Of a stretch of DNA of 64,000 bases, positions 958 through 58,490 are shown piece by piece; position 1 is the stretch's first letter, and the number at the start of each line of letters is the position of its first letter. Location: positions 1,061,501 through 1,125,500 of the forward strand of contig OX637407.1 in the NCBI GenBank assembly GCA_951799425.1, written 5' to 3'. The notes under the pieces were generated by a model. The model searched no databases. It was not told the DNA's origin and saw only the letters and a program-made list of their open reading frames with translations. The DNA is from Ilex aquifolium. Lineage: Eukaryota > Streptophyta > Magnoliopsida > Aquifoliales > Aquifoliaceae. The position numbers and the translations under genes are program-made.

Positions 958-3310
958 TGTAACACCCCGCATTTTTCTTTTATATATGTATATAGATATA
1001 TAGTAGATAATTGTTTTAAAACTGTAGATATATGTAGTGACATAAGAATAAACCGTAGGAATAAATGCTATGGAGACAATTTGATTGGGAAGCTACGTAT
1101 CGAAGATGTTTAAACTTGGAAAGGGTGATTAGACAAGTTTCTAAAGGTTTTTAGGTCAAAATAATGCTTCCATTGAATCCGGAAGGTCGAACAACCTTGG
1201 GAGAGGTAATATGAGGTGTATTGGAAGCTAGGAAGTATTTTGGAGTTAAAACCCACTTTAGAGTGAAATTGGGTAAAAAGTATCTTGGACACTTTCTAGT
1301 ATTTTAGCCATAAATGTTTATCCTTACATTCAATTGATCTGAAATTTTGACAGTAGATAGTAGACATCTAGGGCTACAAAAGTGTATCTCTTGGAAATTT
1401 TCCAATTCGACCTCTAAAGGGGTCAAAACTGCTCTGGAAGTCGAAGCAGCGAAACAGTACCGGTACCGAACAGTACCGGTACCCAGTACCGGTACCCCCG
1501 AACCAGTAACTAATTGGTACCGGTACCCGGTACCGGTACCCTTTGACTGGAGCCTTCCCGAACAGTAAAAAGTCGGGATTTTGGGTTTTAAAACACCCAT
1601 TCCAAGCCCTATTTGCCCCGTTCTTCATCTCATCCTCACCACAAACATCTTAGAGCCCTAGGAGGAGATAAAGAAAGGGAAAAATACCAAGATCAAGATA
1701 GATTCACACCTCATAGAAATCAAACCCGAAATTCCTCAAGAACACCATTCTTCTCCTCTCTTCCTATACACATTCACTACACCCTTACCCACATCTCTTA
1801 GAACCTTAAGAGAAGACAAGAAGGAGAAGGAGAAGGGAGGAAGGAGATCTTTGGAGCTTGGGTTAGCTTATAACTCTTGGATTCAAGGTAGGGGTATTTC
1901 TCTCATTTCTCATACATTGAGGCTAGGGTTGTATATTTATGTATGTCTCTCACTTGTCTTCTCATATATATGATATGTAGTACATGACTCTTGATATTTT
2001 TGCAATAAAGGACATGTTTCAAACATTTTGGTGGTTGGGTAACCATGAAACCATTCTTTTTCACAATCCAACCCGAGTTTTGAAGAAAATGGATTTTTCC
2101 TCTTAAATTCCTTTTGTCTTGGTTACCAAACTTTAGTGTTTTATCTTGTACAACAAAATGATGTTGCTAATGATCTCTTGTTCATTTTCTTAAAATTATG
2201 CTATGGTACATGGCTTGGGAAATTAGGGAATTTGATAATTTCTTGGGATTGTTTGTAAATGGAGATATTCTTGGTTTCCTCTTTTGTATGGTTGCTTGTG
2301 ATGGACTTGAATTACTTACGAGATATGCCGTAGAGTGTAAATGTCAGTCGAACCTAGTGGGGGGAGATGGTTTCTTGCATTCGTAGTGGGTTGGTGTTTG
2401 GCAACACAACCGCTATCGTACGCCTGGAGTTCGAACTAGGGATGGTATACCTTTCCTGGGGAGGGATTCGACAATGCCATGGGTATGATATACGCCCCTT
2501 TCCAAAGGTGCTTGTGATTATTATGGGTGGACTAGGTATAATCGTTGGGAAGATTCAGGAGAAACGATCAACATACATGGCCTTGAGGATGAACCAGAAT
2601 ACCTGGGATTGTTATAGTATTTCTTGGGGGTTATTGTTCATTGCACCAGATACGGTTTCTACAAGAATTTTGGGGTAGTATGGGATGCCACGAGAACTTG
2701 TGGAAATGGTGTATGGTGGGATGGATTATGTTTTGGAAATTGATTATTAATTGTATATTGGTTCCACTCACTCATGAATTATTCTTGATGCGTAAACTTG
2801 AGATCTGATAAATTGTCCCTGTTTTCCTTCAAAAGCTCTATATTATATTTGTGAAACGAGACCGACCTGTTTTATATATTTTCTAAACCTTGTTTGGGTT
2901 TGGGAGAAATTTTCTACAGAGCTTCGTGCTCACCCCCTACAGTTGAACATTTTTCAGATTAAACTCTTGAGGAGGATTTGGGAGTCGAGGAGCCCGCACA
3001 TTGGGAGACTCCGATCGACAGGAGCGTGGATCTCGAGGTGGACGCTTAGAGCGACCCTCTCTTTTGTACTAGACTAGAATATTCTTTTGAACACTGTAAA
3101 GTCTAGTTTAATTTTGCTACTTTCCGCTGCGCTATAATAGTTAATTTATTGGGATGTAAATGCCATTGTTGGGCATATTCTTTTGGATGTTATTGTATGT
3201 GCTTAAATGATGAAGTAAATTCTTTTGGATATTAGGTTGTGTAGTTGCTCTCATGATTGTAAATGGTTTTAGTAGGTAATGCCGTCCAGGGTGTGTTTTG
3301 GGGCTTTACA
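958..3310 (+). repeat. LTR A1 (2353 bp)
   Basis: Opens with TGTAACACCCC and ends TTTACA. A polypurine tract lies on its left and a tRNA-Met type primer-binding site on its right. It contains five GTACCGGTAC palindromes (1457-1539) and a weak TATA-like TTTTAAAAC at 1586-1594, then a purine-rich leader-like stretch. Short frames inside it occur in other LTR copies too and look like chance. The termini match solo LTR C and the LTRs of F. Confidence 0.9.
1457..1539. promoter_or_regulatory. Palindrome array in LTR A1, five GTACCGGTAC
   Basis: Perfect 10-bp palindromes start at 1457, 1473, 1486, 1517 and 1530. The last ends 47 bp before the TATA-like box. LTR A2 carries only three, so copy number changed after the tandem duplication. 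The function is not known to me; position suggests an upstream promoter element. Confidence 0.8.
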
Positions 3311-3314
3311 AAGT

Positions 3315-3326
3315 TGGTATCAGAGC
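3315..3326 (+). promoter_or_regulatory. Primer-binding site, tRNA-Met type
   Basis: TGGTATCAGAGC begins 4 bp after the LTR end. This is the usual plant initiator-Met tRNA primer complement. The A2 copy at 9320-9331 has a G-to-A change in its second base. Confidence 0.9.
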
Positions 3327-3500
3327 TTAGGCTTTAGGTCTTACATGGGAGCTGTAGGTTATGGATTACCACTAGAGCCTTAGGACTAAGTTGAATAAAA
3401 GAGTTTGAGTTAGATTTCACACTCTTCTTGTGTTATAGACTAAAGTGATACCTAGGATGTCTTGCACATCGAGGAACTAAATTGTGAATTGATATGCAGG

Positions 3501-4061
3501 ATGGAGGGTGGACGTGGACGTGGACGTGGACGAGGACGTGGTGGCCAAGCAAATCCACCACCACCATCACCTCCCGATACCATGGATATCATTTATCAAT
3601 GCATAAGGGAGTTAACTACTCTGGTACAACACCAGAATAGAATCAACAACCAACAACAACAGGACTTAGCAAGGGGAGGCCCGATCCGGACTGGTGCTAG
3701 CAGCAGTGGAGTGGCACAAAGGGCAGCTCCGTACTGCCGACCTGACCAAGCTTCAGGGCCACGAAATCCAGTGGTTCAAGGAGCTAGGGCTACTCGAAAT
3801 CGAACAGCCACTGACCCACGTCGCTGTTTCGCATGTGGCGATTTCGGGCACTTCAAACATAGATGCCCATCATTTCCTAAGAAGACCAAACAAGTCGTAG
3901 GACAAGTAAATGCAAACACGCCACCACCACAGAAGCCACCACCGCAGAACCCGTTAGAAGATATAGCCCCCGACAATATTGATCAAGAGAGAATTCCTAT
4001 TCTGACCCAACCGGAGGAAGATGTTTCCCATACAAGTGCGGAAGGTATCGTTTTTCTCTAA
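3501..4061 (+). CDS. Mini-gag: nucleocapsid protein without capsid domain, family A
   Basis: 186 residues, taken from the ATG at 3501; the frame is open a little upstream from a TTG at 3462. The N-terminus is a Gly-Arg repeat (RGRGRG) followed by proline- and glutamine-rich sequence. Near residues 107-120 lies a perfect zinc knuckle, CFACGDFGHFKHRC (C-X2-C-X4-H-X4-C), followed by basic and proline-rich sequence. The end resembles the linker that precedes protease in Tekay-type polyproteins but stops before any DSGA motif. A usual gypsy gag has about 200 capsid residues before the knuckle; none are present. The product could bind RNA but probably cannot form a particle alone, so it may use capsids of a relative. 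The same shortened gag occurs in element F, so it is a family trait and not a one-off deletion. Confidence 0.7.
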   Translation: MEGGRGRGRGRGRGGQANPPPPSPPDTMDIIYQCIRELTTLVQHQNRINNQQQQDLARGGPIRTGASSSGVAQRAAPYCRPDQASGPRNPVVQGARATRNRTATDPRRCFACGDFGHFKHRCPSFPKKTKQVVGQVNANTPPPQKPPPQNPLEDIAPDNIDQERIPILTQPEEDVSHTSAEGIVFL

Positions 4062-6973: not shown

Positions 6974-6991
6974 TCTTTAAGGGGGGTGGAT

Positions 6992-9315
6992 TGTAACACC
7001 CCGCATTTTTCTTTTATATATGTATATAGATATATAGTAGATAATTGTTTTAAAACTGTAGATATATGTAGTGACATAAGAATAAACCGTAGGAATAAAT
7101 GCTATGGAGACAATTTGATTGGGAAGCTACGTATCGAAGATGTTTAAACTTGGAAAGGGTGATTAGACAAGTTTCTAAAGGTTTTTAGGTCAAAATAATG
7201 CTTCCATTGAATCCGGAAGGTCGAACAACCTTGGGAGAGGTAATATGAGGTGTATTGGAAGCTAGGAAGTATTTTGGAGTTAAAACCCACTTTAGAGTGA
7301 AATTGGGTAAAAAGTATCTTGGACACCTTCTAGTATTTTAGCCATAACTTTTTATCCTTACATTAAATTGATCTGAAATTTTGACAGTAGATAGTAGACA
7401 TATAGGGCTACAAAAGTGTATCTCTTGGAAATTTTCCAATTCGACCTATAAAGGGGTCAAAACTGCTCTGGAAGTCGAAGCAGCCAAACAGTACCGGTAC
7501 CCAGTACCGGTACCCCCGAACCAGTAACTAATTGGTACCGGTACCCTTTGACTGGAGCCTTCCCGAACAGTAAAAAGTCGGGATTTTGGGTTTTAAAACA
7601 CCCATTCCAAGCCCTATTTGCCCCATTCTTCATCTCATCCTCACCACAAACATCTTAGAGCCCTAGGAGGAGATAAAGAAAGGGAAAAATACCAAGATCA
7701 AGATAGATTCACACCTCATAGAAATCAAACCCGAAATTCCTCAAGAACACCATTCTTCTCCTCTCTTCCTATACACATTCACTACACCCTTACCCACATC
7801 TCTTAGAACCTTAAGAGAAGATAAGAAGGAGAAGGAGAAGGGAGGAAGGAGATCTTTGGAGCTTGGGTTAGCTTATAACTCTTGGATTCAAGGTAGGGGT
7901 ATTTCTCTCATTTCTCATACATTGAGGCTAGGGTTGTATATTTATGTATGTCTCTCACTTGTCTTCTCATATATATGATATGTAGTACATGACTCTTGAT
8001 ATTTTTGCAATAAAGGACATGTTTCAAACATTTTGGTGGTTGGGTAACCATGAAACCATTCTTTTTCACAATCCAACCCGAGTTTTGAAGAAAATGGATT
8101 TTTCCTCTTAAATTCCTTTTGTCTTGGTTACCAAACTTTAGTGTTTTATCTTGTACAACAAAATGATGTTGCTAATGATCTCTTGTTCATTTTCTTAAAA
8201 TTATGCTATGGTACATGGCTTGGGAAATTAGGGAATTTGATAATTTCTTGGGATTGTTTGTAAATGGAGATATTCTTGGTTTCCTCTTTTGTATGGTTGC
8301 TTGTGATGGACTTGAATTACTTACGAGATATGCCGTAGAGTGTAAATGTCAGTCGAACCTAGTGGGGGGAGATGGTTTCTTGCATTCGTAGTGGGTTGGT
8401 GTTTGGCAACACAACCGCTATCGTACGCCTGGAGTTCGAACTAGGGATGGTATACCTTTCCTGGGGAGGGATTCGACAATGCCATGGGTATGGTATACGC
8501 CCCTTTCCAAAGGTGCTTGTGATTATTATGGGTGGACTAGGTATAATCGTTGGGAAGATTCAGGAGAAACGATCAACATACATGGCCTTGAGGATGAACC
8601 AGAATACCTGGGATTGTTATAGTATTTCTTGGGGGTTATTGTTCATTGCACCAGATACGATTTCTACAAGAATTTTGGGGTAGTATGGGATGCCACGAGA
8701 ACTTGTGGAAATGGTGTATGGTGGGATGGATTATGTTTTGGAAATTGATTATTAATTGTATATTGGTTCCACTCACTCATGAATTATTCTTGATGCGTAA
8801 ACTTGAGATCTGATAAATTGTCCCTGTTTTCCTTCAAAAGCTCTATATTATATTTGTGAAACGAGACCGACTTGTTTTATATATTTTCTAAACCTTGTTT
8901 GGGTTTGGGAGAAATTTTCTACAGAGCTTCGTGCTCACCCCCTACAGTTGAACATTTTTCAGATTAAACTCTTGAGGAGGATTTGGGAGTCGAGGAGCCC
9001 GCACATTGGGAGACTCCGATCGACAGGAGCGTGGATCTCGAGGTGGACGCTTAGAGCGACCCTCTCTTTTGTACTAGACTAGAATATTCTTTTGAACACT
9101 GTAAAGTCTAGTTTAATTTTGCTACTTTCCGCTGCGCTATAATAGTTAATTTATTGGGATGTAAATGCCATTGTTGGGCATATTCTTTTGGATGTTATTG
9201 TATGTGCTTAAATGATGAAGTAAATTCTTTTGGATATTAGGTTGTGTAGTTGCTCTCATGATTGTAAATGGTTTTAGTAGGTAATGCCGTCCAGGGTGTG
9301 TTTTGGGGCGTTACA
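6992..9315 (+). repeat. LTR A2 (2324 bp)
   Basis: Second copy of the A LTR, opening TGTAACACCCC and ending GTTACA. It is preceded by the polypurine tract and followed by the altered primer-binding site at 9320-9331. It differs from A1 by roughly ten substitutions seen by eye plus a 29-bp shortening in the palindrome array. Confidence 0.9.
7491..7544. promoter_or_regulatory. Palindrome array in LTR A2, three GTACCGGTAC
   Basis: Perfect palindromes start at 7491, 7504 and 7535. Two of the five repeats in A1 are missing, with all surrounding sequence preserved. Confidence 0.8.
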
Positions 9316-9496
9316 AAGTTAGTATCAGAGCTTAGGCTTTAGGTCTTACATGGGAGCTGTAGGTTATGGATTACCACTAGAGCCTTAGGACTAAGTTGAA
9401 TAAAAGAGTTTGAGTTAGATTTCACACTCTTCTTGTGTTATAGACTAAAGTGATACCTAGGATGTCTTGCACATCGAGGAACTAAATTGTGAATTG

Positions 9497-9733
9497 ATGT
9501 GCAGGATGGAGGGTGGACGTGGACGTGGACGAGGACGTGGTGGCCAAGCAAATCCACCACCACCATCACCTCCCGATACCATGGATATCATTTATCAATG
9601 CATAAGGGAGTTAACTACTCTGGTACAACACCAGAATAGAATCAACAACCAACAACAACAGGACTTAGCAAGGGGAGGCCCGATCCGGACTGGTGCTAGC
9701 AGCAGTGGAGTGGCACAAAGGGCAGCTCCGTAC
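9497..9733 (+). pseudogene. Truncated mini-gag, second family A copy
   Basis: Copy of the mini-gag at 3501, with two fewer Gly-Arg codons and an extra upstream in-frame ATG (9497; the usual start is 9506). It matches up to base 9733 and then runs into unrelated LTR D sequence, losing the zinc knuckle. The reading frame continues by chance into D until about 9820. The break has no flanking duplication visible, so a deletion or recombination joined A to D. Confidence 0.8.
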
Positions 9734-10200: not shown

Positions 10201-10487
10201 TGTGACGCCCCAATTTTTGGGGGTCCTATATTAACCGTTGACCAACCGTCAACCCGCGGAAGTATCCGTGAATGTCCCTTAAACCCGACACCACGTCAAA
10301 TAACATTCCTTTAACCGGAATCATAACCCACAACTGTAAATTGAAATCAATTATTCATTTGGTTTAATCAAGACCCAACGCACCTTGATTTACACTCCAT
10401 TATAGTCCATTTACATCATTGGAGGAAGGGAAAACATAGATTGAAAATAGGGCAAAGCAATTTAAAAATCAGTAAATTTTGGAGAGT

Positions 10488-10612
10488 GTACCGGTACACA
10501 GTACCGGTACCATACCGTACCGGTACACAGTACCGGTACTGTTAACCTACTGGAAAGGGGGTACCGGTACACAGTACCGGTACCATACTGTACCGGTACC
10601 CAGTACCGGTAC
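10488..10612. promoter_or_regulatory. Palindrome array in B 3' LTR, eight GTACCGGTAC
   Basis: Perfect palindromes start at 10488, 10501, 10517, 10530, 10561, 10574, 10590 and 10603. The sister LTR has seven plus one mutated copy (20220-20345). The same 10-mer occurs in family A, whose LTR is otherwise different. In B the array is about 290-410 bp from the LTR 3' end and not next to the TATA box. Confidence 0.8.
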
Positions 10613-10745
10613 TCTCTGACCAGTTTTGCCATTTTCAACCATTTTTCATTTCCAATCCATTCAAAACCTTTCCCAATTCATCAAATACATGTTTGACAAG
10701 GATTTCCATATAAAACATGGTTTGTACAAGTTCTATTACAATTGA

Positions 10746-13027
10746 TGTAACACCCCGCATTTTCGTTTATATATGTATATAGATATATATTAAATAATAG
10801 TTGTAAAAATGTGGATATGTGTAGTGATGGTAGGAATAAAAAAAAAACTAGAGATGCAAATTAATTTGGAAGTTGAAGTTTTGAAGGTGTGTAAGCTTGA
10901 GAAGAGGGATTAAGTAAGTTTCTAAATGGATTTAGGTCAAAATAAGGTTTCCATTGAGTCCGGAAGGTCGAAAAACCTTGGGAGAGGTGATATGGGGTGT
11001 ATTAGAAGTTAGGAAGTATTTTGGAGTTAAAACACATTTTAGAGAAAATTTGGGTATAAAGGATTTTGGACACTGTCTACTATTTCGATCATAACTTTTT
11101 ATTCCTAACTCCAATTGATCTCAAATTTGGAAAGCAGATATTAGACATCTAGGGCTACAAAAGTGTCTCTCATGAAAATTCTCCAATTCGACCTCTAAAT
11201 GGGTCAAAACTGCACTTGAAGTTGAAGCAGAAAATCTGGGCAGTGACTACCGGTAGTCAATGGTCCAGTGTGCCCGAGCTACCGGTAGTCAACAGGTAGT
11301 CAAGTGCCCAGTGTACTCGGACTACCGGTAGTCAACAGGTAGTCGAGTGCCCAGAATAGTCGAACTACCGGTAGTCACTGTAAAAATCAGACAATTTTAG
11401 TTCGCGAACAGCCGGTTTTTCCCCCACTATAAATACTTCTTGCCATCCCCTTAGCCTTCATTACACACCTTAAAACCCTAGAAAACATTAGAGAGAAAGA
11501 GGGGAAGAGAAAAACACAAGATCAAAGGTGAAAAACAAGGAAAGACAAAGGGTTCACAAGTGATTCAAGACTCAAACCCTAGGTTTCTTCAAGAGCTTAA
11601 GGTAGGGGTTTTCTTCCATTCTTGTTCATTGATGTTAGGGTTATTATATATATATATGTTTTGACTCCTAATCATATGTATTTGCTATGGATTCATTGTT
11701 TCTTGGATTGCTTGCAATTGTTAACATGTTTTACACAAAATTAGGGTTGTATACCCATGAAATCTCTCTTTTGTTTGAAAAACCCTAGTTTTCAAGAGTG
11801 ATGGGTTTTCCTCTTGAACTCTTCCTTTATTCTTGATTTCAAAATCATAGTGTTTTGTGTTGAGTAATAAAATGATATTGTTGTGATCTCTTGCATTTTC
11901 TTGGTTGGTTATTGAAAATGTCACATGCTTAAATTGGGGATTTTAAGATATCCTTGTAAATTGTGAAATGGGGTTTGGTATTGTATCTCTTATGAGTGTG
12001 GGAAGACCATGGGTGACCTTTGACGAGATATCGTAGAGTGGGTAGACGTGTTGCTTGCTCCGTGTGGGTTGGCATTTCTCCTACCACTCGTAGTGGGGTT
12101 AGTGCTTTGGTAAGACTAAACCGCTATTGCTCACGGGTGTCGTGTAAGAGGGTTAGTATACTAATACCTGGGTTGGATACGTCACTTCCATGGGTATGGC
12201 ATACGCCCTTCCTAAAGGATGGATATCTTTGATAAGATTTGTGTGGGTGTGTGTGGGCTAGATATTACTCAATGTGTTGATTCATGGGGTTTGCTTTACA
12301 TCATGTTTGAGATACACATACATATGGTTGTTGAATATTCAAGTTATGGATTATTGTATTATTGTGGAAAATGGTTTCCTACAAGAACTTGTGGGAGTAT
12401 GGGATTCCACAAGGTCTTGTGGGAAAATGGTTTATATTTTGGAAAATGGATATGTATTGGATCTTGGTTTCTTTTACTGTTCATTTAAATTACTGTTGCT
12501 ACTTAAACTTGAGATCCATTTTAAAATGTCCCTGTTTTACTTCAAAGATTATGTATGCTATTTGTAAAATGAGACCGACCATTTTATATGTTTTTATAAA
12601 CCTTGTTCGAGTTTGGGAGGAATGTTGCTACGGAGCTTAGTGCTCACCCCCTACCGCTAACATTTTTCAGATACGGTGCTAGAGGAGAACCTCGGAGTTG
12701 ACGAGCAGGGGTATTGGGAGGCCCCATTCGAGGGAAATCTAGATCCCGAGGTGGACATATAGAGACATAGCTTCCTTTGTAATAGACTTGAGAATTTATT
12801 TTGAAATCATGTGAAGTTTAGTTTTCTTTTGTTATTCCGCTGCTAAGTTACGTTTGATCCTTTGAGATGTAAATGCCATAGCTTGGCTTATTCTTTTGGG
12901 ATGATATTGTAAATTTTATGGATGATGAATGGAAATTTTTTCTTATTGATGGAATTATATTAGTGCTCTCATGTTGTGAATGGTCTTAGAATGTAATGCC
13001 GTCCAGGGTGTGTTTTGGGGCGTTATA
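10746..13027 (+). mobile_element. Solo LTR C, relative of family A
   Basis: 2282 bp, opening TGTAACACCCC and ending GTTATA (the usual final CA has become TA). Perfect 5-bp duplication attga at 10741-10745 and 13028-13032; removing it restores the sequence of the other B LTR exactly at this point. No internal region remains, so two LTRs recombined and left one. Sequence either side of its palindromes is recognisably the same as in LTR A1, but the palindromes are ACTACCGGTAGT-type. A clear TATA box CTATAAATA lies at 11427-11435. Confidence 0.95.
11245..11435 (+). promoter_or_regulatory. Promoter block of LTR C: ACCGGTAGT palindromes plus TATA
   Basis: Palindromes GACTACCGGTAGTC at 11245-11258 and 11320-11333, ACTACCGGTAGT at 11364-11375, and a partial copy near 11279, with loose half-sites between. 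TATA box CTATAAATA at 11427-11435, about 50 bp after the last palindrome. Transcription would start near 11460 and run right. Confidence 0.75.
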
Positions 13028-19932: not shown

Positions 19933-22332
19933 TGTGACGCCCCAATTTCTGGGGGTCCTATATTAACCGTTGACCAACCGTCAACCCGCGGAAGTATCCG
20001 TGAATGTCCCTTAAACCCGACACCACGTCAAATAACATTCCTTTAACCGGAATCATAACCCACAACTGTTAATTGAAATCAATTATTCATTTGGTTTAAC
20101 CAAGACCCAACGCACCTTGATTTACACTCCATTATAGTCCATTTACATCATTGGAGGAAGGGAAAACATAGATTGAAAATAGGGCAAAGCAATTTAAAAA
20201 TCAGTAAATTTTGGAGAGTGTACCGGTACACAGTATCGGTACCCCGATGTACCGGTACACAGTACCGGTACTGTTAACCTACTGGAAAGGGGGGTACCGG
20301 TACACAGTACCGGTACCATACTGTACCGGTACCCAGTACCGGTACTCTCTGCCCAATTTTGCCATTTTCAACCATTTTTCATTTCCAATCCATTCAAAAC
20401 CTTTCCCAATTCATCAAATACATGTTTGACAAGGATTTCCATATAAAACATGGTTTGTACAAGTTCTATTACAATTGATTCCATATATTTACATATCAAA
20501 ATGGAATTCTTACAAAAGCTTTACAAAATAACCATAAAAGCCACAAGTCGGCTTTCTTCAACCTTGAGGCTCGAAATGGGAGCCGTCCGCCAGTGTAAAC
20601 CCCGCACCTGAAATGTTTTTCCCACAAAGGGTGAGCCACGCTCAATAGGGTATCTCCTAATGAGGCTACTCCCCAACCTAAATGCATATGAAATGTTCAC
20701 ATGCCAAAATCAACAATTCATAACATTCCAAGCAAGGAAATATATTCAATGATGGAATTTGCAATGCCATGCTATGGAATGAGGTGAGACCCACTCATGC
20801 ATATCAACCGAGCCCTTCCCGGCTCCTCTACACATGCAAGTGCCAATGTGTACCAATCCGTCATTTATGTTGCACATCAAATGACATTTCATTCTAGGGT
20901 TTTTATAGGGGTGGATGTTCATGGACTCACACCAAAGGTCACCCAATCTACACGGAATTCATGGACTTCCACCAACGGTTCCGCGTACACCGACACACTT
21001 TATGGGCTCATATACCAACGGAGTGCGTATCCAATCACCGGGTCTCTCACCCGAGGGATAGTCTAGCCCTTCTTGCTACCCCAACCCTAACAACCATGCA
21101 AACCGTGAGACTCGACTAGGTCATCGACCCGTATCACCCGAGCCCACTCGTCGTCCACCAAACTTGGTGAAGACAACCACCATGCACACACACCCACTAA
21201 ATGCGATGTTCCCGTGCATATGCAATGTGATGTCCCATTGCAACAATAATACAATGTTCAATATGGTATGAGTAACATATGAACATTTACAACACATTTC
21301 ACACACTTCATGGCAAAATCATATCATAAGCATATAATTTCCATAAAACAATTTCCAAGCATGTTGTCACATAATCATGTTATCAACATCTTAAATTCCT
21401 CAAGGCATATACATAAACACATAACATGCCCACAATTCCATATAACCCAAGATTCACATTGGATTAATTTCATGTACCCAATTCTAGAAATCTCATTTAG
21501 AAACTTCTAATTACCAATCCAATTAGAATTGATCTTTACCCAATTCCATAACCATTTCACCCAAATCAAACAAATAGGCAAGAGATACACATCCTATCAT
21601 CCTACCCATTTCATTAAAACATTCTAAGTTTGGAATAAACCTTAGTAGGAAGAAACCCTACCTCTTGAAGCGTAAGGAACGACCGTAGGAAGCTCCAAGA
21701 CCCGATTCAAGCTCTAAGCCCTAACTTCCCAAAATCTCGTTCCTCGAATTTCGCCCAAACCCGACCTTCTTGGTATGGTTTTGTAGTCCTTGGCGAGGAG
21801 AACAACTTTCTCTCTTGGCTCGAGTTGATTTGAGCTCTCAATCGTTGTAGATCGTAGAGAGAAGGTGGAGAAAACTTTGCTCTTTCCCTCTCTTCCTCTC
21901 ACGTGTATCGGCTGAACAAATGGGGAGAAAATCTGATTTTCTCCCCTTTAAATACTTGGCCTTCAATGCGCCACACGACCCTTATTTCCCGGGTCCGTTT
22001 TAGCCCCGAAACGATTAAATTTCGCTCCGATTCAAGTTCAAAATATTTTTATTTTAACTTGCTGTCATTTATTTCCCAAAATTTAAAATTTTATTCAGAA
22101 TCTCGTTTTTGGATCTCTCGAGGTTTGATCGCCTCGTAAAACGCGAAAAATCCGACTAACTTGGAATTCAATGAAATTTGACAAGGTAACTAGGTTTCGC
22201 GAGACGAATCCAACGGTGATGTCCGTTTCGTTATCCGAGCTCTAGAAAATTTCAGGTTTACAACCTGTACCATAATGGCAATTTACCATTTTGCCCTTTT
22301 TCTCAAAAGTTTAAATTTCCTCGGGTTTTACA
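19933..22332 (-). repeat. 5' LTR of B (2400 bp)
   Basis: TGTGACGCC to TTTTACA on this strand; in the element's sense TGTAAAACCC to GTCACA. It aligns with the 3' LTR once C is removed. Palindromes GTACCGGTAC start at 20220, 20249, 20262, 20294, 20307, 20323 and 20336, with one mutated copy at 20233. The target duplication caagt follows at 22333-22337. Confidence 0.93.
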
Positions 22333-26042: not shown

Positions 26043-26091
26043 CCGTCCGGATGGTGGGACTAGCGTCCGGACGGCAGTGCCCCTATATATA
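26043..26091 (+). promoter_or_regulatory. Internal promoter-like block of G: GTCCGGAC palindromes plus TATA
   Basis: CCGTCCGGATGG at 26043 and GCGTCCGGACGG at 26063, then CTATATATA at 26083-26091. The layout matches LTR promoters in this window, but here it sits between pol and the 3' LTR and would drive ORF2, whose ATG is about 215 bp downstream. The same palindrome type appears in G's own LTR (38214-38244). Confidence 0.6.
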
Positions 26092-26304: not shown

Positions 26305-27411
26305 ATGGATTCAAGACGACGAACAAGAGGGTCTTCAAGCCGAGCACGAAGGGATCAATCTCCACCACCTCAAGCACCTCCACAACAACCTGAACCAGGA
26401 AATATCTTCAATGAGGTGATGTTTGAGAATTTTGAACAACAGGCCTGGTATGATACTAATTTTATGACTAAAACTATTATTTCTGAAAGACCAGTTGTTT
26501 TTGAAGATTTTGAGAACATAAGACAAATTCTTGCTGAAAGATGATGGTTAAATTATGTTAGATTATCTACTCCTGCCTATGACTGCTTAGTTCGGGAATT
26601 TTATAGTAATGCTGAAATAATTGGAGAAAGGCAACTGCATGTGTTCGTACGAGGTAATATTTTTCAAGTTACACCGACTACTATAGCCGATTTCTTTCAA
26701 CCCGTGCAGAGACCAGAAAACCCGCATTATCTGTACACTCGATTACCTGATTTAAATGTTATAGGAAGAGAAGTGACGGGGGACCCAAAATTTGTTTGGG
26801 GTAGACCAAATAAATATATAAAGCAAGGAGATCTGACAGACAAATACATAATTCTCAATTTGATAACAATATATAGTTTGCTACCCCGAGCCAAAAAGAA
26901 TCAGATTTATACTGAGCGGGCTTATTTCTTATATGCATTTAGGATGAGACACACAATTAACTTGCCAAACTTAATCGTGGACCAAATGATACTTGTTGTG
27001 GATAGAAAGAAACCATCACTCCCATATGCTATGTTAGTTTCTCAGCTATGCAGGAACGAAGGTGTGATCATTGATCCGATATGGAAGACAGTGGACCATT
27101 TTGGAGCATTAGATAAAACTTCATTAAAAAAGAGTCATGGAGGACAACCGGAAGACCAACCTGAAGCACCACCTGCACAACAAGAAGAGCCATTCCAGGT
27201 ACCTGAAGAATTCATCCCACAAGAACAGCCTCCACCACAAGTAGATCAACCATACATACCAGTGGACGAAAGAACTGATAGACAAATCTTACTAGAGATG
27301 GAGACCAGCATTACTCAGATCAACAAACGCATGGATGAATATGAGAAGAATCAAGCTGAGCTTTTGAAGTTATTTAGAGATCGTTTTGGAGGAGGACCTT
27401 CTACTTCCTAA
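26305..27411 (+). pseudogene. ORF2 of G, putative plant transposon protein family
   Basis: 368 codons from ATG 26305 to TAA 27409-27411, with a single TGA at 26542-26544 where the H homologue has Gly. The N-terminus is Arg/Ser and Gln/Pro-rich. The core shares FYSNAEI(I), VRG, a QGDLTDKYIILNL-type motif and a short LPYAMLVSQLC-type motif with H. The C-terminus is Pro/Gln-rich, then a heptad-like stretch (residues about 330-360) likely to form a coiled coil. This matches the protein family annotated in plants as putative plant transposon protein, of unknown biochemical role. It follows the palindrome/TATA block directly. One more base change than a working gene would have; otherwise intact. 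Confidence 0.78.
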
Positions 27412-30632: not shown

Positions 30633-30729
30633 CGCGTCCGGACGCGTGTTTTGTGCTGTCCGGACGCGTGTTTTTGCGTCCAAGTTTTTGCCATACGCGT
30701 CTGGACGCGTGTCTATTCCCGTCCGGACG
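30633..30729. promoter_or_regulatory. Palindrome cluster in F 3' LTR, GTCCGGAC type
   Basis: CGCGTCCGGACGCG at 30633-30646, GTCCGGAC at 30659-30666, a copy with one mismatch at about 30695-30710 (ACGCGTCTGGACGCGT) and CGTCCGGACG at 30720-30729. The other LTR has the same cluster at 36777-36873 with the mismatch absent. Flanks match those around the GTACCGGTAC array of LTR A1. Confidence 0.8.
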
Positions 30730-33042: not shown

Positions 33043-33075
<33 letters not shown>

Positions 33076-34739: not shown

Positions 34740-34743
34740 ACTC

Positions 34744-37369
34744 TGTAACGCCCCAAAATACCACTCTGGACGGCATTACATTCTAAAACCATTCATAACA
34801 TGAGAGCAACTAATAAAAATCCATAAATGACCTGGGGTCCCTAATTTAACGAAATTTGGGCAGAGTCTCCTTTGTACGGGAAGCTCTACCCAAAACACAA
34901 CCTGTGCAATTATATTAACTTGACCACACAGGGTCCATTTAACCATCCAATAACAATAAAATTTCATTTACCATCTATACTATCCATAATGTTATCCCAA
35001 AAGAATAGGCCAAGTATGGCAGTTACATTCCCAAAAGAATTACATGAATATATTGCAGCGCAATTTCAAAAGAATCTAGACTTTACATCGTTCAGAATTA
35101 AATCTCCTAATCTAGAACAAAATAAGCTACATCTCTAGATGTCCCACTCGGGATCTAGGTACCCCTCCAATGAGGCGTCCCCAAGGCCCGGCTCATTAGC
35201 GCCAAGCTCCTCCTCTATAGCATAATCTGAAAAAGGTTAGCGGTAGGGGGTGAGCACGAAGCTCTGTAGAAAATTTCTCCCAAACCCAAACAAGGTTTAG
35301 AAAACATATAAAACGGGTCGGTCTCATTTCACAAATAACATATATAGTATTTGAAGTATAACGAGGACATTTAATTAGATCCCAAGTTTACGCATCAACA
35401 ATAATTTCATGGATAAATGAAACCAATATACAATTCATAAGTAATTTCCAAAACATAATCCATCCCACCATACACCATTTCCACAAGTTCTTGTGGCATC
35501 CCATACTACCCCAAAACTCTTGTAGAAACCGTCTATGGTAAAGTGAACAATAACCCATACTAGATGTCCGACACTACCCACGTTACTAATCAGTTATCAT
35601 TAGTGCTAGGAAATGTTCGTACCCACACGGCGTACAAAGACGTCTACCCACACCAGGTGGTAGGAAAAGTTCATACCCGCGTGGCATACAAAGCCGTCTA
35701 CCCACTACATGACACCCGGTCAATAGTAAACCATGTTAGTATCGTACAACTACTCAAGAGATAACATACCAACAAACATCTCACATTACCACCAATACCA
35801 TAAATCCCCAATTTTTCCATCCCACCTCACATGTAACATTTCAATAAAACAATTTAGGAAAGACGCATGAGATCATCGAAATATCATTTTATTACTCAAC
35901 ACAAAACACTAAATTTCATTTTTAAAACAAGACAAAAGAGTATCCAAGGAGAATCCACACTTCATGAAGGAATAGAGTTTTGAAGTGAGGACATGTGAAT
36001 GTTGGGTTAGGATATCAAGGGCCAATGGATGTAAAGCTTGAAATCAAGAACAATTAAACACAAGGTCTTGAAATTAAGAATAAAGGAATAACAAGGTGGG
36101 TCATCAATGACAAAAAAAATAATCAAGCCTTGACGTCCATAGCAACAAATATCAAGCTTGGGAATCCAAAAGTGAAGGAACAATCAAGTTTTGTCATTTA
36201 TAACAACAAACATTAAGATTAGACCTCATGAACAAGGGGGAAATCAAGAGGAACCCAATTTCCTTACAATTAGAATTTCGAAGGCACACCAAGAGATTTA
36301 GCGATTACCCAAGCACAACATAGTTTAGAACATGTAATATTTAAGGTTAGGAATCAAGAGAAAAGGAGAAATCAAAGAAAACACAATCTCCTTGAAAATT
36401 TGGGGTTTCAAAGGCATACAAGGGATTTATGGCTATCAAGCCCTAATTTCGTTCATGATATGGTAAGGGATTACAAGAGCAACAAGAAATAGAGATTCCA
36501 TAACATACATATAAGATTTGGAAGCAAAACATACATAAATATAAACCCTAACCTCAATGTAAGAGAAAAGGAAGAAATCCCCTACATTTCTCCTTAATTT
36601 TTGTGTGAAGACTAGAAGAATTGATCCTTTCCCAACTTGAATCACCACCTCAATCTCTTGCTTTTCCCCTTCCTTCTTCCCCTCTAAGCCTCTCAATTGT
36701 TAGATTTGATGAAATGGCTTGCAAATGGGAGAGAAAACGCCCAAAACAAGTCTGAGTCGTGAAGCCCTCCGTTTGGCGCGTCCGGACGCGTGTTTTGTGC
36801 TGTCCGGACGCGTGTTTTTGCGTCCAAGTTTTTGCCATATGCGTCCGGACGCGTGTCTATTCCCGTCCGGACGCGGGTGACAGTATACCCGCAACTTCTA
36901 GATCAATTTTGACCTATTTAGAAGCCGATTTAAAAAATTTTTGTGAGATACACTTTTGTAGCCCTAGATGTCTACTATCTACTGTCCAAACTTCAGATAA
37001 ATTGGATATAAGGATAAAAATTTATTACCAAAATACTAGAAGGTGTCCCACCTCCTTTTTACCCAAATTCTCTCTAAGTGTGTTTTCACTCCGGAATACT
37101 TCCTAGCTTTCAATACACCACATACTACCTCTCCCAATGTTTTTCGACCTTCCGGATTCAATGGAGAACTTATTTTGACCTAAAAATATTTAGAAACTTT
37201 CATAATCCTTCTTCTCAAGTTTACACACCTTCAAAACTTAAACTTTCCAATCCATTCCTAAGCCAACCAAATCCATCTCAAACCTCTCCAACACATATTT
37301 CCACATTTTACAACAATTATTTACTATATATCTATTTAGATATATAAAATAAAAATGCGGGGTGTTACA
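34744..37369 (-). repeat. 5' LTR of F
   Basis: 2626 bp, same length as its partner. Hairpin at 34858-34891, palindrome cluster at 36777-36873. Ends GTTACA at 37369, followed by the duplication tattc. Confidence 0.93.
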
Positions 37370-37939: not shown

Positions 37940-38401
37940 TGTGATTAACCCTAACTAATATGTAAATTAAAATGATTAAGTAATCATCTTTGTAAGATAA
38001 AACAATTAAAAATTATCAATTAGGGTCAATTAGGGTTTGTGCGTAAATTCAAGTTTTAAATACTTTATGTTCAAAATTTTAGGGTTTAATACAGAATTAC
38101 CGGAGAATACAAGAAAGGATATTGCAAAGCTTGAAATAACAAAGGAGCAAAGTGTAATATAAACCAAGGGAGAAGCCAACATGCGACACATGGAACCTAC
38201 TGCAAGGCACCACAGTCCGGACGGTGGTGGCGGCGTCCGAACGGCCACCCCATGCAGTTTGAGCTCATCTTCTTCCAAGTGCCTATAAATAGACCTCTCC
38301 TCCTTCATTCTTCACAAGGCCGGCCACCCAAGAGCTCCAGAGAGAAATCCAAAGAGAGAAAAAGAGGAAGTCATAGAACAATTCAAGACTCGGTTCGTCC
38401 T
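37940..38401 (+). repeat. LTR of G, left part with promoter
   Basis: Opens TGTGATTAACCC immediately after the polypurine tract. GTCCGGAC palindrome at 38215-38222 and a degenerate copy GTCCGAACGG at about 38235. TATA box CTATAAATA at 38283-38291, followed by CT-rich then AG-rich leader-like sequence. It is cut at 38401 by an LTR fragment. Confidence 0.78.
38214..38291 (+). promoter_or_regulatory. Promoter block of G LTR: GTCCGGAC palindrome plus TATA
   Basis: Palindrome AGTCCGGACGG at 38214, imperfect second copy near 38233-38244, TATA 39 bp further on. The pair of sites resembles the internal promoter at 26043-26091. Confidence 0.7.
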
Positions 38402-46132: not shown

Positions 46133-46178
46133 CGCTCGAGCGGTCTGCTTCGGGCGTCCTTCCAATGAGCTTTAAAAG
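46133..46178 (+). promoter_or_regulatory. Promoter-like block of J: CGCTCGAGCG plus TATA
   Basis: Perfect palindrome CGCTCGAGCG at 46133-46142, a degenerate copy CTCGCTTGAG at 46110, TATA-like CTTTAAAAG at 46170-46178. It lies 183 bp before the J ORF2 start, the same order as in G and H. Confidence 0.6.
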
Positions 46179-46484
46179 TGAGATTTCAACGGGAAAGACT
46201 CACTCTTTACACTTCCAAGAAAGATTCCACTTTATTTTTACCCTACCCAAAGCATTTTCTAGTGATAAAACCTCATATTGAGTGAGATTAAGTGTTAGTT
46301 TGAGTTTAGATCTTAGTTTATCATACTCATTTCTACATTTTCACCAATTGTTTTTGAAAAATGCTACCAAGATCTAAGAAGAGGATGAGGGTACAAGCTT
46401 CAAGTAATATAGCTCACTTTCAGACACACAGTACTAAGAGTTGTATAGGAGACAACTTTTCATCATGGATGACTTGATCCGAAA

Positions 46485-48265
46485 TGTGTACACCCAAGTG
46501 CAGACGGTCAAGCTGTAGTAATAATCCGGTTAAGTCCGGAGTCGAATCCACAGGGAACTATTGTTGGTGTTTCGAAGTAAGCAGTGATAGAGACCAAGTG
46601 ACTGTAACCCTTGAGATTTTAAGTTGTGATGTTTTAGGGATTTTCCTGGGCCAAATATAAAATTCTTCCCAAGAGGATTTTCTAGACAAAATATAATAAG
46701 TTATTAAATGTAACAGTCACCCTTTAGCTCGAGGATCTGAACATGTAGTTAATCATCCAGTTTATTATACTTGTGATTGGAAACTCAATTAACCACCGTG
46801 TCAACATGAAGTTAATCGGAAGGTAAAGATGGATTGTGAGAATTAAGAGCATGGTTCCGATGTCTTTCTAGAAGTTTACAAGAATTTTCTGTGCCAAGAC
46901 TCAACCCGTCTACAAACAAGCAAGTGTTTCTACAAGGCATCCAACCATGGCATTAATATTCCATTCTTTGAATGAAGCACAATAATGGTGAAGATTGAAA
47001 TGTAGTCATGAAGATCTAGCTGGGGTACTTGCCTAGAACCAATGATTCTTTCTATACAAAAGTCATCTATGTCATAGAAAGTGCTTATGGTTGTACAAAG
47101 TACCTTAGCTTTGCTAGATGCATTCAATCATTCAATAAACAAGTGAAATATAAAGCATTAAGCATAAACGAAATGCACAAATATAAATTCTGGATGATTA
47201 ATACATGTCCATCATCTCTTAATAAAGAGTGAATGAGAAACTACCCACTCTTCATGGCTTTGGTAAAGCTAGAAAAGTGAGTGATGTTCATCCCTCAAAG
47301 TATAGGAGTTACAAGGTAAAACACCCTACACAAAGAGTCGATCTTCGACGAAGAATGAGTGAATCACATTCCACCCTTCATGGCTTTGGTAAAGCTCTAG
47401 AAAAGTGGAAGAGTTTCACTCCTCTAAGGGAAGAAGGAAGCTCAAACAATGGAAGCAAATGAAACTAATAAAAATGAAAGTAGAAGATAGCTAGTCACTT
47501 TTGGAGGGTTTCCACCTCAACCAAAAGATGATCTATCTTCCTATCTACAAGTAAATGTAAATCTAATTCTAAGATTAGCTAGTGTAGTTCTAAGTCTATT
47601 TCCAAGGTCTACAATTTTTTCTCCACTTCTTTGAAGCTCCCACAATGGGAGTATTTATAGGCAAGGAGGAGGGGACAAGGGAGTGTGTACAAATAGTGTA
47701 AGGCCTTCAAAGTCCAACTGAAAGCCATCCACTCTGAAGCCTGTCAGGGGACAACGTTCAAACGTTGTCTGGCGTTCGAACGTTGTCTCCTGTATTTGCT
47801 TGATGGGCGTTCGAACGTGGATTGGCGTTTGAACCTCCTACTCAAGTGGCTTTTGTTCTTCTGTGAGGGAAAATTCCACACGCCATGTACCAGAGCACGC
47901 TCTTCTAGGGAGTCCTTAATTGAGTCAAGCCAACGTTCAAACTTCAATTGGCATTCGAACGTGGTACTCAAGTACCTCTTTGTTTTTCTTCTTAGCTACA
48001 ACACGCCATGTATTCTCATCTCAGCAGTCTGGTCCTCCAATAATTCAAGAGGACATTCGAACGTGGATTGGCGTTCGAACGTCCTTGCCTTGTTTCAAGC
48101 TTCTCTAGTTTTCTTCCAGAACATGTGGTTGTTGGTGAAAGTTTGTTGTGTATTGATTTTAGGCCCTTGTACAATATTTGTCCTGAAATGCCAACATTTA
48201 AACTCCATCAAGGTATAATTAGTCTTAAAAAGGCATAGTAATATGCTAATTTTAACTACTAATCA
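46485..48265 (-). mobile_element. Solo LTR L with CGTTCGAACG promoter
   Basis: About 1.78 kb on the minus strand, opening TGATTAGTAG in its sense and ending GGGTGTACACA. TATA box CTATAAATA at 47660-47652 (minus) with leader beyond. The palindromes CGTTCGAACG lie upstream of it (47773-48081). No internal region. The flanks cgaaa (46480-46484) and acgga (48266-48270) do not match well, so the exact ends are uncertain, but the ORF2 reading on both sides supports an insertion here. Small frames inside are not conserved. Confidence 0.65.
47652..48081 (-). promoter_or_regulatory. Promoter block of L: CGTTCGAACG palindromes plus TATA
   Basis: Perfect CGTTCGAACG at 47773-47782, 47808-47817 and 48072-48081, with one-mismatch copies near 47763, 47831, 47936, 47952 and 48054. 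TATA 47652-47660, about 113 bp downstream of the nearest site in the minus sense. The spacers between sites recur too (a GGATTGG word). Confidence 0.75.
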
Positions 48266-49153
48266 ACGGACTGTGCTTGTGGAGAGAGGGTTCAATCACC
48301 TTGGGATAAGTAACACTTTTGTCCCTTTGTCATTTGATTGGAGGGGGTAGACTGAGCTATTTCCAGCCCCAGTGCCCACAAATTTAGACATAGTCAGAGA
48401 GTTTTACACACACAATTGTGACACTACAGGGGATAATGAGGACTTCACAACATATATCTGATGTGTGTTATTTGAGTTTTTCACTGGCCTTATTATCACC
48501 ACCCTACGTTTTCCTCGGGTAGCACGTGATCCTTATCATTTTTGACCTAAGAGTGCTATACGCACACTAACATCAGTGGTACCATAAGGACTTGACAAGG
48601 GATTATAGGTTTATAAATCTGATTGTTAACTGCAACATTGACCCGAAGACTTATATATCCACTTTTCCCATATCATGAGCCTATTTGCTACATGTTATTG
48701 GTACATGTTTGGAGATAGATCTATCGCATGTGATATTTTGAGTCATTCAAAGAGCATTTGATGAAGGGAGGATTACATATACCCTTCCATTTGGTTCTTT
48801 GATCACCCGTATTTGCCTAGATAGGGGTGCTGGTGCTTTAGATTTTGACCAGCTAATGAGACTAAAGAGAACTCTAGGGAAAGAGTCTCTGAGACAGAGC
48901 GAGACACATGCGAGATATACTTTTGACCCTAAAGCCTAGTACATCTAGTAACACACCACCATCGAGGCTGGCACGAGACCATATCTCCCGTACCATATTC
49001 CCTATGATTCCTCCAATAGCTGCATTGGATCAGTGGACCACTGTTCACACAGCACTAGGTCATCTACAGAGTAGTATTGATCAACATAACAATCTTTCTG
49101 CTCTTCGTATGGATGATCTTGATAAGGGTATGATAAGCCTACAGATGGATTAA

Positions 49154-52215: not shown

Positions 52216-52251
52216 TCAAAAAAAAATTAAAAGTTTCATCAAGACTCTTTC

Positions 52252-54580: not shown

Positions 54581-54583
54581 GCT

Positions 54584-56591: not shown

Positions 56592-57695
56592 TCACTCTTC
56601 TCCTTGTCCACTAGCTCCACCATGTCCACCCCTCAAAAGCCTAAGGATCTCATCCTGCTTAGCTTCAATGCTAAGCATGATGTCCCGTAAGGAGCGTCGG
56701 GTGCTGGTGCTGGTGCTGGTGCTAGGTCCCGCCTCTGCTGGCTGATCTCCCTCTCTCTCCATCTCTCTCTCCATCTCATCTAGCTCCTCTTGTACCTCAT
56801 CCACTCCGTGGGCCGGGGGCTCTTCTTGCCTTGCCGCTGGGCCACCACTATGACTTTGGCTTCTCCGGAAGGAAGCCTTGTTTAGTGGCCCCATTGGCTT
56901 TTGGATTTCCATCTCGGGCCTCACCCTTACCCCATGCTCTTTGCATAGTTCTGTCACTAGGGTGCTGAAGGGAAGCGAATTCCTCTTCACATCACACCCT
57001 TTTTTCATTTCTGTCAGAATTAGGGAGGGGAGATCAATGCTTTGCCCTTTTCCAATCGCATACAACAACCGAGCCATGTCAGGTAAAACTTCATTTTTTC
57101 TTCCTATTGGAGCAAAATTTGACACCGCAATTAAGTTTAACATTTTGTATTTGTCACTTAGCTCCCCTTGTCTATGAAATTTCTTCCCAGTCCACGAAAA
57201 ATTGGGTACTCCAGTCAGTTCCTTCCCCACCTCATTTATCACCACATTCTTCCTTGGGGGATAAGCGGGATTTGGCACCCGAGGCACCTCTTGCCTTACT
57301 CCCCAAATGTAATCTTTATCAACGTCCACATGGACTCCCCTTACATACGTTCGAATTTCCCCCTCGATGATCTCGGCGTTGGAGTAAAACTCCCACACCA
57401 AGTCGACTACGGCCTCACCGCCGTTCCTCAAATACAACAACCACCCCCTCCTTTCCATCTCCGCAAAGATCCCCAACTCCGTAAAATTAGTCAAAATCAC
57501 ATCTCTTTCACAAACAATGGCTTTGTTTTGGTAGAAATTTTCAAACCTGTCTGCTTTTAGAGCTGTGAGAAACCGAGTCTTGTCGTATCTCCTTGTGAGT
57601 GGTGGCATTCCTTCTCTCACCTCCACCACTTCTTCGACAAAATTTGGCTCTTGGGTGTTTGGGTTCTTCTTGGCAGGAAGCTTGACTCTTGGCAT
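56592..57695 (-). CDS. ORF2 of H, putative plant transposon protein family
   Basis: 367 residues, uninterrupted, starting at a good ATG (57695). The N-terminus is basic (MPRVKLPAKK). The core has ERRGWLLYLR, VWEFYSNAEI, VRGVHVDVDKDYIWG, GKELTG, HRQGELSDKYKMLNLIAVSN and SLPFSTLVTELCKEHGV. The C-terminal third is acidic, Ser/Thr-rich and then has a predicted coiled coil ending in LRLLRGG. No signal peptide or membrane segment is seen. The family is annotated in plants as putative plant transposon protein; its activity is not established. G has a near-intact copy and J a decayed one in the same position after pol or after a promoter-like block. It lies 210 bp downstream of the TATA box at 57905-57913, which suggests separate transcription. 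Confidence 0.82.
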   Translation of the reverse strand: MPRVKLPAKKNPNTQEPNFVEEVVEVREGMPPLTRRYDKTRFLTALKADRFENFYQNKAIVCERDVILTNFTELGIFAEMERRGWLLYLRNGGEAVVDLVWEFYSNAEIIEGEIRTYVRGVHVDVDKDYIWGVRQEVPRVPNPAYPPRKNVVINEVGKELTGVPNFSWTGKKFHRQGELSDKYKMLNLIAVSNFAPIGRKNEVLPDMARLLYAIGKGQSIDLPSLILTEMKKGCDVKRNSLPFSTLVTELCKEHGVRVRPEMEIQKPMGPLNKASFRRSQSHSGGPAARQEEPPAHGVDEVQEELDEMEREMEREGDQPAEAGPSTSTSTSTRRSLRDIMLSIEAKQDEILRLLRGGHGGASGQGEE

Positions 57696-57904
57696 TTTTT
57701 CGGTTTTTGAGTTGGAGGGTTTTGAAATCTTTGATTTCTTTGTGAAAATGGATCTTCTTGAAGTGGCAAATGTCTTGGGAGGGTTGATTTTTGGTGAAGA
57801 TGGAGAATGGTTGGGGTTTTGGGATCTGGGTAGTGAAGAGTCTCCAAGGTTTTTCGGGTTTTCAGAAGTTTTGGAGGGTTTTGAAATGAAGAAGACGAGC
57901 CGGG

Positions 57905-58224
57905 CTTTTATAGCCTGAGTCGTAACGTTCGAACGTTTGTGAAGTTCGAACGTGGATAGAAGGATTTTAAACAGACCGTTCGAACGTGGTATGGCGTTCG
58001 AACGTGGTGAGCTCCCAGTACTTTTGTGTTCTGTCAGAGGCCAAAGTACTGAATGTTCTCTTCGTTCGAACGTTCTATTGGCGTTCGAACGTTAATCTCG
58101 TTCGAACGGTCTATTGGCGTTCGAACGGACTGAGCTCCCAGTACTTTTAAGTTCCAACAGAAGTTTCATCAGAGGCTGAGTACCGTAAGCAGTTAACGTT
58201 CGAACGTTACCTGGCGTTCGAACG
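57905..58224 (-). promoter_or_regulatory. Internal promoter-like block of H: ten TTCGAACG sites plus TATA
   Basis: TTCGAACG starts at 57928, 57945, 57979, 57997, 58065, 58084, 58101, 58120, 58199 and 58217; nine of ten extend to GTTCGAACG or longer. In the minus sense the TATA box CTATAAAAG (57913-57905) follows the last site by about 12 bp. Spacers also repeat (GAGCTCCCAGTACTTT twice), so the array grew by duplication of larger units. It separates the small ORF from ORF2. Confidence 0.75.
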
Positions 58225-58490
58225 TTGAACCAAAATTAAAATTTTTCTCTACTACACTACATACAATCAAAGAAAACAAAACACACAAATTTAAATCAAA
58301 AACTAAGGCGTCTCAGGATGAACCCCTACCCACGCTTCAGGTTGGTATTTTGGGGCATTCCTTACTCGGCCCATATTTTCATTTCAGTCAAAAGAATTTA
58401 TACAAAAAGATTTTTACACTTTTTACAACAAATTCGGACCTTTGGCATTCACTCCCCCAACAAAAGTACACATTTCCTACATAAAATTAT

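Follow-up and report, generated by a model that had tools for sequence, protein, structure and literature searches.

Short palindromes centred on CG recur in the promoter-like regions of a stretch of the Ilex aquifolium genome, and the question that this locus raises is what they are and what might read them. The stretch, referred to here as the window, is 64 kb of plant DNA (assembly GCA_951799425.1, contig OX637407.1, positions 1,061,501 to 1,125,500) composed of nested long terminal repeat (LTR) retrotransposons and rich in Ty3/gypsy elements, with a GC content of about 39% and a CpG observed/expected ratio (o/e) of 0.58. The first-pass annotation that described the palindromes had noticed something real and genome-wide; it over-counted the TATA boxes that accompany them, and was wrong about their element specificity and about the lack of a precedent. 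We consider it moderately probable that the palindrome arrays are interchangeable cis-regulatory or enhancer cassettes, and that their readers are dimeric factors with sequence specificity, most probably supplied by the host.

All the palindromes listed in that annotation are present in the window, and they exceed what its composition predicts. Perfect CG-centred palindromes of at least 10 bp number 51, against a mean of 7.6 and a maximum of 16 in 60 dinucleotide shuffles made in 1-kb blocks; the GC-centred ones are 7 against a shuffle mean of 10.3, the AT-centred ones 34 against 29, and the TA-centred ones 35 against 24, just above their shuffle maximum of 34, which neither the AT- nor the GC-centred ones exceed in their own shuffles. 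An independent sample, 200 kb of this genome in 20 preset stretches of 10 kb each, holds 62 CG-centred palindromes against a mean of 22.6 (maximum 35, 20 shuffles). The other centres are also enriched there (AT 225 versus 110, TA 196 versus 95, GC 47 versus 32.5), an excess to which simple AT repeats, left in, probably contribute. Two of the 256 possible sequences, or words, are prominent in the sample, CGTTCGAACG with 16 and GTACCGGTAC with 9 of the 62, and the others occur at most three times each. Counted on the forward strand of the whole genome (800 Mb, 103 contigs) and compared with the reversed pattern, CGTTCGAACG is found twice within 5-35 bp at 14,406 places versus 0, and CGTCCGGACG at 3,272 versus 0. 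A single GTACCGGTAC followed six bases on by GTAC, which is not a full pair, occurs 6,039 times versus 5; pairing is weak for CGCTCGAGCG, the word of site J (22 versus 3), and an unseen null word with the same letters, GCTTCGAAGC, gives 0 versus 0. Chance and base composition are thus ruled out as the source of the palindromes by the shuffles, the reversed patterns and the null word. Two known motifs are provisionally set aside: the heat-shock element needs two bases between TTC and GAA, which TTCGAA does not have, and the Pol III B box is only a near match to GTTCGAA, after which a TATA box follows. An identical CGTCCGGACG-N10-CGTCCGGACG pair at G000:C1:105378, 202987 and 208698 has a spacer unlike those of the LTR and internal arrays, and perhaps belongs to another family.

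The letters A to L given to the elements follow the text of the first-pass annotation, F and G being matched to it by what appears to be the best correspondence. Judged by LTR homology, A, B, C and F appear to be Tekay-like LTR elements, and G, H and L appear to be Athila-like on the strength of their pol order, the frame with the PF20167 domain and LTR homology; these are the lineages that we take the names Tekay and Athila to denote. Among the first four, gag-pol domains are found only in B, which has separate frames for gag, reverse transcriptase (RT)/RNase H, integrase zinc-binding and Tf2-type SH3 domains and, beyond these gag-pol-like frames, no sense frame of at least 130 aa. The sole frame of A and of F is about 200 aa long, with a zinc-knuckle-like stretch and no Pfam match, and C is a solo LTR inserted within the LTR of B. 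Primer-binding sites (PBS), putatively for Met-tRNA, lie in the Tekay-like elements at 3315, 34739 and 19929, the last of them in B. On the Athila-like side, the pol domains of H follow the Ty3 order of RT, RNase H and integrase, so H does not belong to Ty1/copia; a PF20167 frame comes after pol in H and accompanies a partial pol in G, and L is placed by LTR homology. F is inserted in G, which continues at 37370. The features of the window are the following.

1457..1540, + strand: first LTR of A (Tekay-like), five GTACCGGTAC; LTR start at about 958
7491..7545, + strand: second LTR of A, three GTACCGGTAC; short gaps remove two copies relative to the first LTR
10486..10613, - strand: array of the 3' LTR of B (Tekay-like, chromovirus-type), eight GTACCGGTAC
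20218..20346, - strand: array of the 5' LTR of B, seven GTACCGGTAC and a decayed eighth copy, with the LTR end about 280 bp further on; PBS at 19929
11244..11375, + strand: array of C (Tekay-like solo LTR in the LTR of B), four CTACCGGTAG
11427..11435, + strand: TATA box of C, CTATAAATA, 52 bp past the last word
26044..26073, + strand: internal promoter of G (Athila-like), one perfect CGTCCGGACG (26064-26073) and one decayed
26084..26091, + strand: internal box of G, TATATATA, 10-11 bp past the 10-bp word
26305..27411, + strand: accessory open reading frame (ORF) of G (PF20167), interrupted by an in-frame stop that immediately precedes 26545
28598-37369, - strand (LTR arrays): whole element F (Tekay-like), target-site duplication TATTC
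30633..30729, - strand: array of CGTCCGGACG in the 3' LTR of F
36777..36873, - strand: array of the 5' LTR of F, three CGTCCGGACG together with an 8-bp form; TATAWAW absent within 120 bp
38215..38243, + strand: 3' LTR of G, GTCCGGAC (38215-38222) and a decayed copy; LTR start at about 37941, after the polypurine tract
38283..38291, + strand: TATA box of the G LTR, CTATAAATA
46133..46142, + strand as listed: J, one CGCTCGAGCG; candidate site, no element assigned
47652..47660, - strand: TATA box of L, CTATAAATA
47773..48081, - strand: array of L, three perfect CGTTCGAACG accompanied by decayed ones; lies within an Athila LTR similar to that of H, at about 46467-48266
56592..57695, - strand: accessory ORF of H, 367 aa, PF20167
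57905..57913, - strand: internal TATA box of H, CTATAAAAG
57924..58224, - strand: internal promoter array of H, nine CGTTCGAACG and one GTTCGAAC
59504..63919, - strand: gag/pol frames of H (Athila-like), upstream of the internal promoter

The Tekay-like LTRs suggest that the arrays behave as replaceable units. Those of A, C and F have about 80% identity in the first 485 bp or so, and this collapses at the start of the array, so that one homologous slot holds GTACCGGTAC in A, CTACCGGTAG in C and CGTCCGGACG in F. Two further LTRs of the Tekay lineage from the 200-kb sample, L028 and L029, have CGTTCGAACG in the slot and, like C, CTATAAATA 52 bp further on; in the 1,430 bp that follow downstream, L028 and C show 92.7% identity. 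A pattern that anchors the Tekay slot before CGTTCGAACG has a single match, because L028 and L029 differ in the anchor, and it is not used as a count. Words are also held in common: A and B, both Tekay-like, share one, as do H and L of the other lineage, F and G share one between the two lineages, and the word of H and L also fills Tekay LTRs elsewhere. As Tekay and Athila share words, these are not element-specific, contrary to the statement that the word differs by family. In the B-related Tekay LTR at 54100-54582, which is free of palindromes, the alignment shows, by eye, a direct repeat of about 33 bp instead.

In some cases the likeness between lineages goes beyond the words. When these are kept fixed and the letters between them are shuffled 500 times per pair, the internal array of Athila H aligns with Tekay L028 at a score of 128 (null maximum 79) and with Tekay L029 at 109 (null maximum 77), with 0 of 500 shuffles as high in either case. 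The internal array of a second Athila family, whose accessory frame has 377 aa (the 377 class), scores 74 against Tekay F (null maximum 58, 0 of 500), and the LTR array of this class scores 53 against the same element (null maximum 49, 0 of 500). These cross-lineage homologies suggest that some promoter cassettes have been exchanged between lineages. Further dyads, of the type CAGTACTTT ... AAAGTACTGG, are found between the words of both Athila H (57924-58224) and Tekay L028.

The first-pass annotation held that one architecture, an array and then a TATA box, recurs in LTRs and in the internal promoters of accessory genes, and this is what is found. Its count of seven TATA boxes in the same orientation at nine sites stands for C, G internal, G LTR, H and L, which makes five of nine with a canonical box, and falls at A and J, where only TTTTAAAA and CTTTAAAAG take its place. 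The gap from word to TATA box is 52 bp in C, 10-11 bp in G internal, 60 bp in the G LTR (from the perfect 8-mer), 12 bp in H and 112 bp in L. F had been said to lack a clear TATA box, and no TATAWAW lies within 120 bp on either side of its array; in B one such box lies within this range, on the antisense side only. Among 16 clusters of at least two equal words (9 in the window and 7 in the 200-kb sample), nine have a TATAWAW within 120 bp on either side, compared with 22% of random points, and in seven it has the orientation of the element; a CTATAAA box is within 120 bp of all five CGTTCGAACG clusters (two in the window, three in the sample). The spacing falls into narrow ranges by promoter type. 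From last word to TATA box, the internal promoters measure 12 bp (H), 11 bp (377-aa class) and 11 bp (G), the Tekay LTRs in which a box is found 52 (C), 52 (L028), 52 (L029) and 64 bp (L028b), and five Athila LTRs 60 to 112 bp. A palindromic motif in the LTR upstream of the TATA box, as in the repeated-motif (RM) boxes of Sireviruses, is present in C, G and L of the window, and elsewhere in the genome in the H family, the 377 class, L028, L028b, L029 and L032.

Internal promoters of this kind stand before the PF20167 accessory gene of some families, and are far from general. The 22 PF20167 loci considered are 20 hand-chosen from 150 scored places (6,661 candidates) and the two of the window, with 1.5 to 2.7 kb inspected upstream. 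At five of them (H, G, L048, L049 and L050, representing three families) a palindrome lies just upstream of a TATA box. From 30 bp past this box, 188 nt lead to the ATG of PF20167 in H and 73 nt in the 377-aa class, neither of them with an ATG in between, and the leader of G contains one. Of the 17 array-free loci, twelve have frames of 351-422 aa and, searched to -2700, no upstream array save four GTACCGGTAC in L043 that have no TATA box nearby; three have scattered GATCGATC, and there are two others. In these three (L046, L047 and L052; 384-389 aa), several GATCGATC or TGATCGATCA sites are dispersed over about 1.3 kb upstream of the domain with no canonical TATA box nearby, and are possibly another word. 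The 377-aa class makes up 17 of the 150 scored rows, 16 of them free of stops and all with nearly equal scores, which suggests a recent spread.

All three Athila families with an array in the internal promoter repeat its word in their 3' LTR, a match established for array-bearing families. The 377 class has CGTCCGGACG in the internal promoter (L048) and in the LTR (L068), G has GTCCGGAC in both, and the H family has CGTTCGAACG internally in the window and in 18 further copies, each with 5 to 10 perfect words, and in the LTRs L069 and L070. By eye, and among the first matches listed for contig C1, all six internal-type CGTCCGGACG clusters and five of six internal-type CGTTCGAACG clusters are accompanied, at a distance of 3 to 9 kb, by an LTR-type cluster with the same word. 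Around the words, the two arrays of H have little in common (29 of 500 shuffles as high for L069, 37 for L070 and 11 for the L LTR of the window), and G internal and G LTR are matched by 24 of 500. The two arrays of the 377 class score 55, with a null maximum of 53 and 0 of 500 shuffles as high, which indicates some homology.

The words are also more constant than their surroundings. Among 19 H copies (the window and 18 of 40 listed), pairwise diversity is 0.010 at non-CpG word positions and 0.046 in the spacers, and 0.059 at the CpG of the words and 0.078 at 14 other CpG columns. Diversity was computed pairwise, in place of an estimate against the window copy alone, since the latter counts the changes of the window itself many times.

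A dimeric regulator is proposed because the sites are symmetric, tandem, similarly spaced from the TATA box, conserved over their spacers and alike in both promoters of a family. Each cassette would comprise one to ten two-fold symmetric sites, with a 10-bp core centred on CG, mostly just upstream of a Pol II TATA box, and would promote transcription from the LTR and, for some families of Athila, separate transcription of the PF20167 accessory gene as well. A sequence-specific DNA-binding dimer would read each word, and multiple sites would raise its occupancy and probably help to prevent the promoter from closing where chromatin is silenced. The words, few in number, would form a vocabulary used by Tekay-like and Athila-like elements, with cassettes moving between these lineages by recombination or template switching. 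Host transcription factors are the most likely readers, because the same words are spread over lineages with and without accessory genes. Binding, activation, the identity of the reader and exchange as the cause of the likeness are what we infer from sequence, whereas the enrichment, the fixed slot, the TATA spacing, the matching words of three families, the constraint on the words and the two cross-lineage homologies are observed.

Several results weigh against this picture of interchangeable cassettes. A, B, F and J have no canonical TATA box in the orientation of the element, and the array of B is near the 3' end of its LTR. Nor do the palindromes mark nearly every promoter-like region, as had been claimed: two B-related Tekay LTRs (52249-54582 and 38400-38830) have no array, and 17 of the 22 PF20167 loci have no palindrome of at least 10 bp just upstream of a TATA box within the 1.5-2.7 kb inspected. 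A common word does not always mean a common cassette, as shown by A and B (36 of 500 shuffles as high), B and L028b (24 of 500), L029 and the L LTR (73 of 500), the internal promoters of the 377 class and G (81 of 500) and their LTRs (238 of 500). The cassette comparisons number 19 in all, with shuffle counts uncorrected for that number, and in a more severe comparison by BLAST, where N stood in for the words, no match between Athila and Tekay survived. The diversity test is modest, 7 of 526 slid word masks being as low, and the repeated words may help the aligner in a way that favours them. RNA folding is strong, with z from -4.8 to -10.2 in eight arrays, each better than its 60 shuffles, which makes a role in RNA possible.

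Among the alternatives to host-read cassettes, the one that survives best, which we nevertheless regard as doubtful, follows the VANC system of VANDAL transposons: the PF20167 protein of an Athila family would bind the word of its own family, both in the LTR and in the promoter of its own gene, and lift silencing, and Tekay elements with the same cassette would eavesdrop. It would explain why all three families with an internal array have the same word in both promoters, and in H the word seems matched and not merely copied, because the homology between the internal array and the LTR array hardly extends past it. The motifs of VANC6 likewise occur in the unrelated AT9TSD1, according to the available part of the report (PMC5735166), and N-terminal basic stretches, which may be of significance here, are found in the frames of G and the 377 class. 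Against it stand the many PF20167 loci that have no such array, and the absence of GTACCGGTAC, the word of A and B, from every TATA-linked PF20167 promoter among the 22 loci. In its simple form it is further opposed by B, which bears an array and, beyond its gag-pol-like frames, shows no candidate accessory frame of at least 130 aa; the homology between the internal and LTR arrays of the 377 class also counts against it. Nor does the protein help, as PF20167 has no relative by sequence among solved structures, one match in the protein collection and a fold prediction that is unusable (pLDDT 39, three sequences). A possible relation to the plant mobile domain (PMC7156037) was dropped, since no such Pfam match appears up to E 10. 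A broader version, in our view unlikely, is that LTR retrotransposons have evolved a VANC-like system of their own: that the PF20167 protein made from the internal promoter reads the word marking both promoters, that related families switch word and protein together, and that Tekay elements copy the cassette to profit from it.

It is quite unlikely that the words act in genomic RNA, where their self-complementarity could produce hairpins, lead to dimerisation or yield precursors of small RNAs, the last of these having been suggested for the Sireviruses of maize. The folding of all eight arrays tested agrees with this, and the palindromes of maize Sireviruses attract small RNAs (Bousios 2016, as cited in the consulted part of PMC10760457); strong folding is, however, the unavoidable result of repeating a palindrome, and the near-constant TATA spacing and the presence of arrays at internal promoters point to DNA. 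Equally improbable is a neutral by-product, in which slippage and copying spread CpG-rich stretches with no reader: copies are gained and lost (5 versus 3 in A, 5 to 10 perfect words in H) and the arrays are CpG-rich (o/e 0.81-1.86 versus 0.58), but the words are conserved over their spacers, the same few recur in different lineages, the TATA spacing is near-fixed and array-free sister LTRs exist.

The architecture has a precedent, contrary to the view that none had been described for LTR elements. In 13 Ty1/copia Sireviruses, palindromes precede the TATA box of the LTR and also the env-like gene (Bousios 2010, PMC2829016), and in the portion of that paper available the authors call the motif Sirevirus-specific and take it as support for an internal env promoter. 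Their RM boxes share with the arrays described here the multiple palindromic copies, mostly with a CGG-CCG core, CpG-rich and a short distance upstream of the LTR TATA box, the repetition upstream of the env-like gene, here upstream of PF20167 in H, G and the 377 class, and almost identical words in elements whose sequence homology is very low, as far as the same portion tells. The hosts differ: Ty1/copia there, Ty3/gypsy Tekay-like and Athila-like elements here, with PF20167 in place of env, and the switching of words in a homologous LTR slot and the homologous cassettes in two lineages are found here.

Other systems are alike in part. The VANDAL transposons, in the available text of Hosaka et al. 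2017 (PMC5735166), have short non-coding motif clusters that change fast between related families and act in trans on the unrelated AT9TSD1; they are DNA transposons with a known reader, and their 8-9 bp motifs are not called palindromic in that text, whereas the elements here have LTRs, a PBS and gag-pol, are not Mutator-like and are known from sequence alone. In both, clusters are non-coding and differ between families, and here words also cross lineages. The plastic 5' CpG islands of Del/Tekay (Cruz et al. 2014, PMC4029996) are likewise variable CpG-rich stretches in the first half of the LTR; in the part of the source at hand they are absent from its eudicot group, no word beginning palindrom- occurs and their origin and sharing are not addressed. 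Palindromic or complex repeat arrays have been described in cis-regulatory regions of other transposable element families (works cited in PMC10760457), and the passage concerned mentions no word sharing or cassette exchange. The QuinCent motif of RLG_Quinta, proposed to be acquired from RLC_Gisela (Heuberger et al. 2024, PMC11302176, in the part consulted), is also an LTR segment common to an unrelated retrotransposon family and superfamily, yet it is a nucleosome-positioning segment of centromeric elements and not a palindrome array. Accessory frames are treated in PMC11963269 and PMC12844716, as far as the accessible parts of these papers go.

No description of the architecture in Ty3/gypsy was found among the titles and abstract beginnings listed from the open-licence literature. 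Its occurrence there, the switching of words in one slot and the sharing of cassettes between lineages are, as far as seen, new. A promoter design regarded by those who described it as peculiar to Sireviruses now extends to the other plant LTR retrotransposon superfamily. One LTR slot occupied by several words, and cassettes that resemble each other across lineages, amount to a natural experiment. It allows two questions to be tested: do plant retrotransposons share particular host transcription factors or compete for them, and does the accessory protein read the same word as the LTR?

Four contigs of a viral collection (L001-L004) carry GTACCGGTAC arrays and have no blastn similarity to the window, and for the pol of B and of H no relatives were confirmed in the viral contigs. 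Element A (window 1-9733) is laid out as interior-LTR-interior-LTR-interior, which resembles the product of unequal recombination, and a tandem repeat with 24- and 35-bp steps occupies window positions 22956-23653.

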